Shown here: positions 11,950-33,400 of the stretch, piece after piece
Layout: each line of letters starts with the position of its first letter
How positions within the stretch are numbered: position 1 is the first letter of the stretch
Assembly (NCBI GenBank): GCA_020057295.1
Contig: JAGVGF010000004.1
Span: 1-59,311 of the forward strand
Direction of reading: 5' to 3'
DNA: 59,311 nt
Source: an archaeon
GTDB lineage: Archaea; Nanobdellota; Nanobdellia; Woesearchaeales; UBA9642
The notes under the pieces: generated by a model
What the model saw: only the letters and a program-made list of their open reading frames with translations
The model's database searches: none
What the model was told of the DNA's origin: nothing
Position numbers and translations under genes: made by a program

Positions 11950-12015
11950 CTTTATATATTCCATGAATAGTTTCCTGTAAGTTTAAAATAAGTTTTAACT
12001 TTGTGGGGGATTATT
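11950..12015 (+). promoter_or_regulatory. Promoter, leader and strong ribosome site of the ThyX-like gene
   Basis: The TATA-like CTTTATATATTCC (about 11949-11961) would give a start near 11978 and a short leader. The leader ends TTGTGGGGGATTATT just before ATG 12016. Nearly the same 19-21 bases precede the unknown gene at 52960. Confidence 0.55.
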
Positions 12016-13776
12016 ATGGCTGAGAAAATTATTCCAGATAAAACATTACAAACTAATGTAGGAAAACCTAATGAAGGATTGTGGGAATTCTACGGTGAAG
12101 AAAAATTAGGTATAACTGCCATTACTTATAATCAAAAAGACACTGGTGCAGTACTTGCAACAGTTCACGGCAACCCTAATATGAGAACTGCATCTCATAT
12201 AGCATGGGCTGGCGCGAGACATTCAAGAGCTCCGGGAGATACTGTTGAAATTCTTCAAGAAATGGGCCAAAAAGGAGTTGATCCAGATCAAAAATTAGAA
12301 GATACATTCAAGAACTATGGTCATGCATCTGTTGCTGACATGGCACGTGTAGCTGTACAATTCAACAACGTACCAATGCATGTTCCAATGAATTTATTCA
12401 ATGAAACAGTAATAAATAGTGGTCAAGAAAAATCTACAAGATATCAAAAACAATTTAGTGGAGCAATATTACATCCATTAGGATTATATTTACATGATCC
12501 ATCACCACAATTAGTTGCGATGTATGAATCATTAGGAAGATTATCATTAGAGACATTTGGAAGACAAAAACCAATAATAACACAAGCTTATGAAGAATTC
12601 TACAAACCTACAATTGCAGACGCAAATTCAAGTAAGGCAGAAATAGAGCAAGCAAAAAAAGAAAAATCATCTTTAGATTCAAGAGTCTTGGATACAATAA
12701 GATTTAATTTACTTCTTGGGCAATCTACAGGATTCGCATTAGAAACTAGTGCTAGAGATTGGTCGAAAATAATATCACACATGAAAGGTTCTGAAATGTC
12801 ATTCTATCAGAACTTAGGCCAACATTTAGAAACAATGCTTGCTCCAGATGCATATATCGAAGAAGGACTAGGATTTAAGGCTGAAGCTCCATCATTAATA
12901 AGACATACAAAAGCAGATACTTCATTATCCACTGATTTAAGAGAATTAAAAAAATATATGGATGCGAAAGATTTGACTAAACATTTGTTTTCTCATTCTA
13001 GTCCATTATTTGTATTTTCTTATGAACCACAAGGTGCTTCATTGCTTGATAGCCAAAGATATAGTGCTACAGAAAAAATGGTAGCGCAATACTTCTTAGC
13101 AGCACATCCAGGCGGAAAAATGGATGCAGCACTAGAATTAGCTAAGAATCTTCCACCAGACATGAGAGAAGATATATCTAGTATAATATTTATTGGACAC
13201 TCACATCAAAAAGAATTACCGCAACAATTAGCAACAACAGAAGAAACAACCATAGCATTTGAAGGAACGTTAGGAGAATTAAGAGACTTTAACAGACATA
13301 GAGCATGGGGTAGATTCTTACAACATGCACCTTTATACAATGGTCCACAAGTTGAACGAAAAGATTTCGATAGAATACTAGATTTAGGATTTGGATTACC
13401 ATTATATGTTACAGAAATAGAACAACTTTCTGAATTAGGATCAATGATGGAAAAAGATTTAGTAAATTATTATACTAAAGTTTTAGAATTTGAAAACGCA
13501 GTACACAAGGAATATGGTGATAGTGCAAATTACTATTTTATGATGAATCTTTTGCCATTAGCACATAGATCAAATATTTTAATGCATGGTAATGTTAAAC
13601 AAGCACATTACTTATCACATTTGAGAGTAAGACCTGGAGGTCATATAAACTACAGGGCACTAACACATGATGCTGCGCAAATGATAAGTGAAACAGACTT
13701 ATACTTGGCAAGATTAATGCCTGTAAGTAGTAAACCAGATCCGGCTGGTAGAGAAGAATTTTTCGGAAGATCATAA
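12016..13776 (+). CDS. Double-domain ThyX-like (FAD-dependent thymidylate synthase superfamily) protein
   Basis: ThyX makes dTMP from dUMP using FAD and folate and is normally 200-300 residues; this protein has 586. Domain 1 has 'NYGHASVADMA' (about 100-110) and 'SGQEKSTRYQ' (135-144), the dUMP-binding SxRY end of the ThyX signature, but RHR is replaced by NET. Domain 2 has 'LRDFNRHRAWGRF' (422-434) with RHR but no SxRY after it, then 'LPLAHRSNILMHGN' and 'YLSHLRVRPGGHINYRALTHDAAQMI', matching the ThyX C-terminal region. So the signature is shared between two half-matching copies. The start 12016 is fixed by a GGGGGA ribosome site. It leads an operon with the next two genes. Activity as a thymidylate synthase is inference. 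Confidence 0.75.
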   Translation: MAEKIIPDKTLQTNVGKPNEGLWEFYGEEKLGITAITYNQKDTGAVLATVHGNPNMRTASHIAWAGARHSRAPGDTVEILQEMGQKGVDPDQKLEDTFKNYGHASVADMARVAVQFNNVPMHVPMNLFNETVINSGQEKSTRYQKQFSGAILHPLGLYLHDPSPQLVAMYESLGRLSLETFGRQKPIITQAYEEFYKPTIADANSSKAEIEQAKKEKSSLDSRVLDTIRFNLLLGQSTGFALETSARDWSKIISHMKGSEMSFYQNLGQHLETMLAPDAYIEEGLGFKAEAPSLIRHTKADTSLSTDLRELKKYMDAKDLTKHLFSHSSPLFVFSYEPQGASLLDSQRYSATEKMVAQYFLAAHPGGKMDAALELAKNLPPDMREDISSIIFIGHSHQKELPQQLATTEETTIAFEGTLGELRDFNRHRAWGRFLQHAPLYNGPQVERKDFDRILDLGFGLPLYVTEIEQLSELGSMMEKDLVNYYTKVLEFENAVHKEYGDSANYYFMMNLLPLAHRSNILMHGNVKQAHYLSHLRVRPGGHINYRALTHDAAQMISETDLYLARLMPVSSKPDPAGREEFFGRS

Positions 13777-13806: not shown

Positions 13807-14847
13807 ATGCGTGAATATATTGATTTAGTAATTGCTGGCCCAGATTTTTCTGGTACAACGACGCAGATATCTGACTTGATGAATTATTGTTCTGGTGCAG
13901 GTTTGATTGTAAAGGATTTACGAGACACAGAAATTGATGCATTATTTCATGCAGACACATTCTCTGAGTTAAATAAACCATACACTTCTCTAAAACAGTT
14001 TCTTGATGATGCTAACTTGTCAAAGTTATCAGGAAATTCTTTCGGATCAAGAATTGTTTTTACATTAAAACAAACTTTATCAGAATTTTCGAATAGAGAC
14101 TTATCTAGAGGAACAAAAGATAAATTATTAAGACAAATGTACTCATTATTGTCTGGTCATCATCAAAATTCTGATTTAATGGTTGCATCAATGGTAAGAA
14201 ATAATTGCAGTACATATATTAATCCGTTGAGTGCTGATATGTGGGTTAATGAAGAACCAACAAGAAGAGGTGCTGGACAAGTTAATAGAACAATTGAGCA
14301 ACGTAGAAGTGCATTTGGTTCACAACTAGATGCTAATAGTGCTGCGTTAACTCATCAAGTTTATCGTATTGATGAATTTTTAAGATTCAGAAATCCTATT
14401 AGAGAAAACGGATTAATTAGTCTTAGGAGTAGATCTGAAGAGTCAGCATGTTATCAGATATATGATGCTCAAAGCTTACATAGTGGTATTAGATTAGATA
14501 AATATTTAGATTTACCTGGTCATAAAATAGCATTTGCAAATCCTCCAACACACATATTTGTAGTATGTGGTCCAGAAAATTGGGATTCTGAGGAATATAA
14601 AAAATTAAAAGCTGAACGAACAGGTTCAAGATTATTAGATGACCATGAAGCTAATTATTCATATCAATTATTGGTTAATCAAAGATATGCAAGTGATTGG
14701 CTTGAGGAATTATATCATAAGGGTTGTAGGATGTATGATTCCAGGGAACCAACCATAGTAAGATTTGATATCTATGATAGTAAGGAACAGACTAAACATA
14801 AGATGATTAGAGAATTAGAACAGATATTAATAGTGCGTGGCAGATAA
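13807..14847 (+). CDS. Thymidylate-kinase-like protein with a degenerate P-loop
   Basis: TMK phosphorylates dTMP to dTDP. The P-loop at 11-20 reads 'GPDFSGTTTQ', so the invariant Walker Lys is Thr. 'EEPTRRGAGQ' (149-158) looks like the TMK EPT motif but lies about 100 residues later than usual. 'LISLRSRSEESACYQ' (about 203-217) resembles the DRYxxSxxAYQ motif with the Asp changed. 'PPTHIFVVCGPE' and 'RLLDDHEANYSYQLLVNQRY' match the later strand and lid. At 346 residues it is well above the usual 200-210. It sits 30 nt after the ThyX-like gene with a GGTGATG ribosome site. It may bind dTMP without catalysis, or use an altered nucleotide site. Confidence 0.65.
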   Translation: MREYIDLVIAGPDFSGTTTQISDLMNYCSGAGLIVKDLRDTEIDALFHADTFSELNKPYTSLKQFLDDANLSKLSGNSFGSRIVFTLKQTLSEFSNRDLSRGTKDKLLRQMYSLLSGHHQNSDLMVASMVRNNCSTYINPLSADMWVNEEPTRRGAGQVNRTIEQRRSAFGSQLDANSAALTHQVYRIDEFLRFRNPIRENGLISLRSRSEESACYQIYDAQSLHSGIRLDKYLDLPGHKIAFANPPTHIFVVCGPENWDSEEYKKLKAERTGSRLLDDHEANYSYQLLVNQRYASDWLEELYHKGCRMYDSREPTIVRFDIYDSKEQTKHKMIRELEQILIVRGR

Positions 14848-14873: not shown

Positions 14874-15395
14874 ATGGCTGAAGAATTTAATTTTGAAATA
14901 ATTCCTTACATAAAGGCAGAAGATGTACAAAGAATTTCTCCAATTGCTAGAGATTCCGGATATACGCTTGCTGATTTAGATGAAATTGAAGCTCTCGGAA
15001 GAGCAACAGCATATGTTAGAACATTGCTAAATCATCATGTAACTACATCATTGCAATTAGAGGGGAAATTTAAGTCAGATATAAAGACTTTAAGAGCGAT
15101 TCTAAATATAAATCAGAATATTGCGCAACTCGTTGAAGGATTTAATGAATCTCAAAGAGGTCTTATAACTAATTCCGGTGCTCCAAGAAATATTATTTAC
15201 AACACATTAGATTTTGGAACAGTGTATAATATAAATGTGTGTGGTCACGGAAAAATATTAATGCTTGAAACTATTGCTGAAAGGGATAAGAGAATAGAGC
15301 AAAGAGCACTTGAAATATCACGATCTATTGGTTCAAGTTTGTATAAGGAATTAATTGCACGAAAAAAATATGAAGATTTATCGGAACTTCTTTAA
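14874..15395 (+). CDS. Unknown protein, third gene of the ThyX-like operon
   Basis: 173 residues, soluble and mostly helical by eye, with no family I recognise. The first half has a helix-rich run ('LADLDEIEALGRATAYVRTL', then 'LRAILNINQNIAQLVEGFN'). A central strand-like part 'NIIYNTLDFGTVYNINVCGHGKILM' holds the only Cys-His pair. The C-terminus is charged ('AERDKRIEQRALEISRSIGSS'). AGGTGA at 14867-14872 precedes ATG 14874, and the gene follows the TMK-like gene by 26 nt, so it probably works with the two upstream proteins. Confidence 0.6.
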   Translation: MAEEFNFEIIPYIKAEDVQRISPIARDSGYTLADLDEIEALGRATAYVRTLLNHHVTTSLQLEGKFKSDIKTLRAILNINQNIAQLVEGFNESQRGLITNSGAPRNIIYNTLDFGTVYNINVCGHGKILMLETIAERDKRIEQRALEISRSIGSSLYKELIARKKYEDLSELL

Positions 15396-30433: not shown

Positions 30434-33400
30434 TTATATCTTTAAACTTGTAACTTTAGAAATTCCGAACTCGTTCATACTAACACCGTACAATATGTCT
30501 GCTTCTGAAATTACGCCATCGTTATGACTAATTATAATATATTGTGCCTTCTTAGCATAATTTTTCACAAGCAATGCTAATTGTTCTGAATTCTTTTTAT
30601 CAAGTGCTGCATCTACTTCATCAAATATATAAAATGGTGCAGGATCATACTCTTGAACAGCAAATATAAATGCTATAGCAGTTAAGGTCTTTTCTCCACC
30701 AGATAATGATTTAATATCTAAGAACTTTGTACCACTAATTCTTACTTTAATCAGTAATCCTCCATTAAATGGATCATTTTTATCTTCCAGTTCAAGCGAT
30801 GCCTCTCCTTTACTTGATAACGCACCAAATATTACCTTAAAGTTGTGATCAATAATTTCATAAGTTTTCATGAACAATTCACGCTTCTTACTATCAATTT
30901 CATTAATCATCATTAATACATCTTCACGTTCACTCAATATTTTGTCCTTCTTATCAATAAATGTCTTATATTCTTTTTCTATTTTTTCATAAATTTCAAG
31001 CGCACGCATATTTACTGCACCAATATCTGATATTAATTTCTCGAATTGTGCAATTTCCTTTAATATTTCTGACTCTGGCTTATCCTTGAATAATTCAACA
31101 CCTTCATACTGTTTATACTCTTCAATCATTCCAGATAATTGTGCACGTATTTCAGCGCCTTGTAATGATACTAAATTGCCTTTCTGTTCAATTCTTCTAG
31201 AATCTTCCTGTTTATTGTATATCTCATTTTCATTTTTACTAATCTCTTCAGATAACTTATTTCGTTTATTGAATAATTCTTTAAATTGTGCAAAGAATTT
31301 AGCCTCAACAGCTTCTTTTTCTTTTAATGAACCTTCTTGTTCCTTAATTTTCTTTATTAATGCGGATTTTTCATCTTCGAATCCTGCTTTTTCTTTATCT
31401 TGCTGCTTCAAAATTTTTGATATATTCTCTTTTTCAGGATTTAAAACATTAGACACTTGTGCATCATTATTCTTTATTTCTATTCTATAATTATTCACTT
31501 CCTCTTTTAATTGTGTCTTTTTCTGCTCGAATGCATTTAATTCTGCAAGTAGTGCAGGATTTCTTAATTCATTTATCTTATCTCGTAATTGTTGTTTCCT
31601 AATTTTTAATTGTGCTAACTGCTTATTTTTTTCAGAAGTCTTAACAATAATATTATCTAAATTTTTATCTATCTCTGTCATTAATTTTTTTAATTCTGTC
31701 TTCTGTTTTTTACTAACATCTAAATCATTAGAATCTAAATGTAAGGTTCTTTCCATTACTATTACTTCGCCATCAATATTAGATTTTAATTGTCTTAATC
31801 TATCTATTAACTCTTCATTATCTAATCTCTTTTGTTCCAAGTTACTTAACATTCCTGTATAATCTGATATTTCCGATTCGAGTCTGTTGATACCGTCGCT
31901 AACTTCTTTCTCTTGGAATCCTGAACCTGTCTTAGTTCTAAATCCACCTTGCATCGATCCAGAAGTTTCAAGTAAATCTCCTGTCATTGTAACCATACGA
32001 TAATTTCCAACACCAATTTTTCTTGCTGTTTCTACATCTTCAACAACTATAGTATTTTCGAAAACGTAACTGAAAACTTTTTCAAATTTAGGATCATAAG
32101 TAACTAAGTCAATTGCTAAACCTTTAATTCCTGGAGCCTTCAGATTTTTTAACTCAGGTTTTATTGACACGCTTCTAATCTTGTTCATTGGTAAGAATGT
32201 TGCAACACCAAGTTTATTATCTTTTAAATATCTTATACATTCTGCAGCTACTTTATCATCTTCGACAACTATGCTTCTTATTCTTCCACCTGCAGCAACT
32301 TCTAACGCTAAACTAAATTCTGATTGCACATTACCAAGTGTAGATACTAGTCCATAGATGCCTTTTTTAGTTTCTCGCATCTCTAAAATTCTTTGAACAG
32401 CAACACCTGCTGCTACACTTTCTCTAATAGTATTATTTTTAGCTTGTAATTTTACTAATTCTTCTTTTCTACTTAACATTTTAGAACGTGCATTTTCCAT
32501 CTGCGCAGCAAGTGATGAATTTTCAGATAATGCTGCATTTAATTCTAAAGTTATTTTTTTAAATTCATCCTTCTTCTTTTTTAATATCTCAACCTGTTCT
32601 TTATTTTCTTTTTCAAGTTTTAGAACATTATCAATACTTTCATCAATATTCTTTAATATTAACTCATTTTTATCCTTATCTCTGAGAAGATTTTGTTGTT
32701 CCTCACGGAATTTTTGTGCTTCTTCCTGTAATAATTCGCTATCCTTATCTATTTGTTCAATCTCTTTGTCGATTTGTTGTACACTATCTAAATTATTTTT
32801 TTCTAAGAAATTTTTAATTTTTAGATCAATCTGTTGTAATTCTTTATCTTTAATATTAATTGTTCCTTCAAGTTCTTTCTTACTATTGTGAAGTTTCTCT
32901 ATTTTTTCAGTCAATTCATCATAAGAATTTTGTAATTGTTGTTTTCTCTCATTAATTTTAGTTAATTCTGTTTCTATACCATTAACACGCTGATTATTTA
33001 GTGCTAATTCAATCTTTAACTTTTCAACCTCTTTATGTATTGCAACTTGTTCCTTTTCGCCTTTTTCTTCAATCTCTTTATTTATCTTTTCAATCTCTCT
33101 TTTTTTATGATCTATAGTATCTTTTAATTTATTAACTTCTTCCGTGAATTTAGCTATTTTACTGGATCCTTCATCGATTTCCTTCTGTAACTTATCACGT
33201 TCAGTACTCTTTGTTTTAATTTTAGAATCAAGTAATGTTGCTTTATTACTCTTAATTTTATCATTTAAATCTTTGAATTTTAATGCTTGATCCCTGTCTC
33301 TTTTTAATTCTTGTAAATGTGTTTTTCTCTCTGCTAGAATTATTTCAACTTCATTCATCTTTTCTTCAACACGTTGCAATTCTCTTAACGCCTTTTCTTT

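Follow-up and report, generated by a model that had tools for sequence, protein, structure and literature searches.

A thymidylate kinase-fold protein without the Walker A lysine is a probable dTMP kinase of nanoarchaeal cells

The window analyzed here is a 59,311-nucleotide stretch of a contig from a woesearchaeal genome assembly (GCA_020057295.1; 1.20 Mb in six contigs, completeness rating 100%). A gene at positions 13807..14847 of the plus strand encodes a 346-amino acid protein with the thymidylate kinase (TMK) fold that has no Walker A lysine. Directly upstream is the gene for a double-domain, 591-amino acid ThyX-like thymidylate synthase (12001..13776, plus strand). As the initial annotation stated, the kinase-like gene comes right after it; 30 bases separate the ThyX-like stop from the next start, and the two genes likely belong to the same operon. 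A 173-amino acid open reading frame begins 26 bases past the kinase-like gene (14874-15395, plus strand); it matches nothing in Pfam or NCBIfam and lacks a counterpart in the corresponding locus of G001, a genome of the same genus. The kinase-like protein was not placed in a family by Pfam, NCBIfam (nothing near the cut-off), PHROGs, or a PDB sequence search. The Pfam TMK profile PF02223 does not match the window protein, and the best of the 16 family members reaches an E-value of 0.014, short of the cut-off. We use TMK-T as a working name for the uncurated family that holds the window protein.

Six clear orthologues (E-values 1e-59 to 1e-91) emerged when 352 genomes of the order were searched, and the remaining matches were weak and fell on ordinary ~245-amino acid thymidylate kinases. 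When an alignment was used to scan 84,980 species and the phylum, the total rose to the 16-member set used below. These are distinct proteins of 309-346 amino acids whose aligned sequences are 41-59% identical to that of the window protein and share 51 invariant positions. The alignment query recovered 14 TMK-T loci from genome contigs, whereas a single-protein query against genome contigs returned zero matches. The hosts are Woesearchaeota, Pacearchaeota, Nanobdellota, and related nanoarchaeal metagenome-assembled genomes. TMK-T is rare and has a scattered distribution, occurring in about 2-3% of the class, and extra sampling of the class yielded no further member. Two members were recovered from bins that carry the names of other phyla, an Uhrbacteria bin (L098) and a Nitrososphaerales bin (L096); these two may reflect either misbinning or horizontal transfer. 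A phage or viral origin was considered and rejected, as no relative turned up in phage records, in IMG/VR scans, or among PHROGs. The viral proteins that match it structurally are mostly annotated dTMP kinases. Literature searches for a DPANN or a lysine-less TMK found none.

The Walker A region of the window protein is GPDFSGTTTQ (residues 11-20; 13837..13866, plus strand), and Thr17 (codon ACA, 13855-13857) occupies the position expected for the lysine. The alignment of homologues proposed beforehand as a check on this residue gave a clear answer. The family consensus is GPD[MFG]SGT[STGN][TS]Q in 16 of 16 sequences, the lysine position is threonine in every one, and no orthologue has a GxxxxGK[ST] loop. 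One substitution in the codon (AAA to ACA) is enough to turn the lysine into threonine, and ACA is the codon in the window, which would fit a sequencing error or gene decay confined to this genome. However, the 16 independent orthologues encode the threonine with all four of its codons (ACA 7, ACT 4, ACC 3, and ACG 2), which neither chance nor sequencing error explains. Together with the 51 invariant positions, this refutes the error explanation and leaves it a vanishingly small probability. The residue after the threonine, normally the serine or threonine that binds magnesium, varies among S, T, G, and N. A P-loop shifted by one residue, with Thr17 as the magnesium-binding residue, was rejected, as Q20 and the flanking columns align without gaps. 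The second loss concerns the DR(Y/H) motif, whose aspartate was correctly described as changed in the initial annotation. The window protein has RSR in place of xDR(Y/H) (residues 207-209; 14425..14433, plus strand), with Ser208 for the aspartate, an extra invariant Arg207, and Arg209 retained. RSR is found in 16 of 16 members. In P-loop kinases that have been studied, the Walker A lysine pairs with the Walker B aspartate in the resting state (PMC8517177); TMK-T has neither the Walker A lysine nor the aspartate of its own DR(Y/H) motif.

An AlphaFold2 model built from 15 sequences has a pLDDT of 83.6 and a pTM of 0.83 and is poor only at residues 73-99. All 50 of the PDB matches listed by Foldseek and a structural aligner are thymidylate kinases, and the best superimposes with a Z-score of 20.6 and an rmsd of 2.7 over 205 residues. 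On its predicted structure, TMK-T is a member of the thymidylate kinase fold superfamily, in agreement with the original description of the protein as TMK-like. The EP motif begins at residue 150 within EEP (residues 149-151; 14251..14259, plus strand), the counterpart of REPGG/EPT in TMKs. It lies late, as first reported. The P-loop-to-EP spacing is 133 residues in the window protein and 97-113 in the orthologues, compared to 42-48 in the nearest lysine-bearing TMKs and 23-26 in canonical TMKs. The motif is late because a helical subdomain common to the TMK-T family is inserted ahead of it, past the strand that follows helix 1 (about residues 40-148; 13924..14250, plus strand). Residues 73-99 of this insert are specific to the window protein and modeled with low confidence.

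The residues assigned to the dTMP site by their roles in TMKs generally are conserved, including the P-loop aspartate, the EP pair, the arginine of DR, the thymine-contact arginine, and YQ. D13, E150-P151, R161, R187, R209, and Y216-Q217 are invariant in TMK-T, S213 is kept apart from threonine in one member, and position 183 is histidine or tyrosine where TMKs carry a stacking phenylalanine or tyrosine. The LID segment (K268-x2-R271-x3-R275-x2-D278-D279-x-E281; 14608..14649, plus strand) is a candidate source of replacement positive charge, and its K268, R271, R275, D278, and E281 are invariant. Seven basic residues, R154, R195, R199, R207, K268, R271, and R275, are invariant in TMK-T and missing or variable in the lysine-bearing relatives.

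The nearest relatives are ~245-amino acid TMKs of archaea from the same order that belong to PF02223 and have a GLDGSGKG P-loop. Profile alignment with hhalign matched TMK-T to this family from P-loop to LID with the P-loops aligned (probability 99.5, E-value 4.5e-23, 207 columns), and the homology runs along the whole chain. Both groups have the EP motif, the xR, the DR-type arginine, the YQ, the LPGN/LPGH motif, and the LID, and in neither is the serine or threonine after the Walker residue fixed. They differ in that the shorter proteins have the lysine in 21 of 21 cases, lack the inserted subdomain, and form a separate clade. The tree places the 16 threonine proteins in one clade and the 21 lysine proteins in another with 100/100 support, and the TMK-T branch is long. 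The aspartate change is not unique to TMK-T, as the lysine-bearing family has Glu, Ser, Gly, or Asp at that position. Among individual sequences (e.g. L003, L068, L077, and L081), the P-loop is often GKG without a magnesium-binding Ser/Thr, and ERG or SRS stands in place of DRY. With the aspartate already variable and the residue after the lysine often glycine in these relatives, the metal and phosphate site was perhaps loosening before the lysine was lost. This comparison of sequences suggests that the donor site eroded stepwise in this lineage. Canonical dTMP kinases (PF02223; Escherichia coli, human, Pseudomonas aeruginosa, and Thermus thermophilus) are more distant. They resemble TMK-T in fold (Z-score about 20), dTMP-site residues, and LID; in contrast, TMK-T has the Walker A lysine-to-threonine and DR(Y/H) aspartate-to-serine changes, has about 75-110 extra residues from P-loop to EP, and falls below Pfam detection.

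A thymidylate synthase gene adjoins TMK-T in 12 of 16 loci, either directly or with one small open reading frame or a dihydrofolate reductase (DHFR) gene between them; 4 of 16 loci have no adjoining synthase. Six loci (the window, L086, L087, L096, L097, and L099) have a single, double, or divergent ThyX as the neighbor, and six (L084, L090, L091, L092, L100, and L112) have ThyA, with DHFR intervening in L084 and L112. An association with either of two unrelated synthases is consistent with an enzyme that acts on their common product, dTMP. These data, along with the retained dTMP-site residues, support the link to dTMP drawn in the initial annotation. In G001, a canonical TMK (GIDFCGKSTQ) occupies the slot of TMK-T, after a ThyX that is 54% identical. 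Genes for dCMP deaminase or dUTPase are close to TMK-T in many loci. In four loci, TMK-T adjoins a fusion protein that joins a P-loop nucleotide-kinase-like domain (AAA_18) to a dCMP deaminase domain (L084:1076-2164, L086:8475-9491, L087:2391-3404, and L097:3036-4097).

ThyA or ThyX is encoded in 12 of 12 TMK-T genomes, and the window's genome also encodes a thymidine kinase; thus, these cells presumably produce dTMP and have to consume it. A search for a normal TMK in the window's complete genome found no recognizable one, and the same is true of 10 of the 12 TMK-T genomes, the window's included. PF02223 scores above cut-off in 3 of 12; one of these hits is an adenylate kinase, which leaves real PF02223-like kinases beside TMK-T in two (G189 and G249). 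By eye from sequence, the apparent TMKs of G402 and G448 are adenylate kinases and that of G000 is FtsY. PF02223 occurs in 279 of 343 genomes of the phylum sample and in about 276 of 331 (~83%) of those other than TMK-T genomes, so it is rarer in the TMK-T genomes (2 of 12; Fisher p about 1.6e-6, or 2e-5 counting all three). In Pseudomonas putida, Tmk is replaced at the tmk locus by a T4-type dNMP kinase (PMC10653934), a precedent for another kinase standing in for Tmk, though one of a different family from TMK-T; the T4-type kinase was sought in the 12 TMK-T genomes and found in none.

These data argue that TMK-T is probably the dTMP kinase of its host cells with a rebuilt donor-phosphate site. 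The loss of both the Walker A lysine and the DR(Y/H) aspartate from a protein that keeps its dTMP-site residues and is linked to thymidylate synthases could also point to a pseudo-kinase, which would bind dTMP without phosphorylating it and act as a carrier, sensor, or synthase partner while a broad NMP kinase makes dTDP. We consider this unlikely, given the 10 genomes without another recognizable TMK or a T4-type enzyme, the canonical TMK in the same slot of a same-genus genome, and the invariant K268/R271/R275 and D278/E281 of the LID, which would be superfluous in a protein that only binds dTMP. The carrier or regulator role first proposed is disfavored on similar grounds, as TMK-T usually stands in place of TMK in the window's genome and 11 others. 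Counting against a dTMP kinase are the additional PF02223 kinases of G189 and G249, the four loci without an adjoining synthase, and the possibility that another NMP kinase phosphorylates dTMP. Replacement of the lysine normally cripples P-loop kinases, which also counts against an active TMK-T. We lean, with somewhat less confidence, toward a lysine-less P-loop kinase that is the cell's only dTMP kinase and in which the roles of the lysine and aspartate have moved to LID and NMP-domain residues or a different donor is used.

A dTMP kinase would convert to dTDP the dTMP made by the neighboring thymidylate synthase and, in hosts that have one, by a thymidine kinase. TMK-T and the ~245-amino acid TMKs (GxDGSGKG P-loop) share an ancestor, and the TMK-T lineage exchanged the lysine for threonine and the aspartate for serine and gained a subdomain of ~50-85 residues beside the NMP-binding site. 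The P-loop backbone may still cradle the donor phosphates, and the lost charge may come from relocated invariant basic residues, K268, R271, and R275 of the LID and possibly R207, R154, or R195/R199. We infer catalytic activity, ATP as the donor, and the identity of the lysine substitute. The altered donor site beside a retained acceptor site could also reflect a different phosphate donor, as the initial annotation suggested; a dTMP kinase supplied by, for example, polyphosphate, PPi, or an NTP other than ATP could dispense with the Walker lysine. This alternative seems quite improbable, as the P-loop backbone motif (G-PDxSG), the LID, and the C-terminal strand-helix are retained and no sequence feature indicates another donor. 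With the LID basic residues at hand, ATP with relocated charges is the simpler guess.

WNK protein kinases lack the catalytic lysine at its usual place, and it has possibly been relocated. TMK-T would be their P-loop analogue, an analogy limited to the missing lysine since the folds are unrelated. The Walker A lysine is generally regarded as almost universal among P-loop NTPases and kinases. A family without it and without its aspartate partner would demonstrate that such chemistry is open to rewiring, and TMK-T would offer a natural setting in which to probe the function of the Walker lysine. These proteins are probably essential kinases and would fill a dTMP kinase step that annotation pipelines would score as missing. 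Three TMK-T genomes also encode a ~215-amino acid protein of the ThyA fold (PF00303, E-value 2e-19) without a cysteine at the usual catalytic position (G000 contig 3, about 31704-32345, which is L139:1205-1846; L140:6967-7626; and L141:1185-1844). It lies downstream of a larger protein, which is HTH-like in L140.
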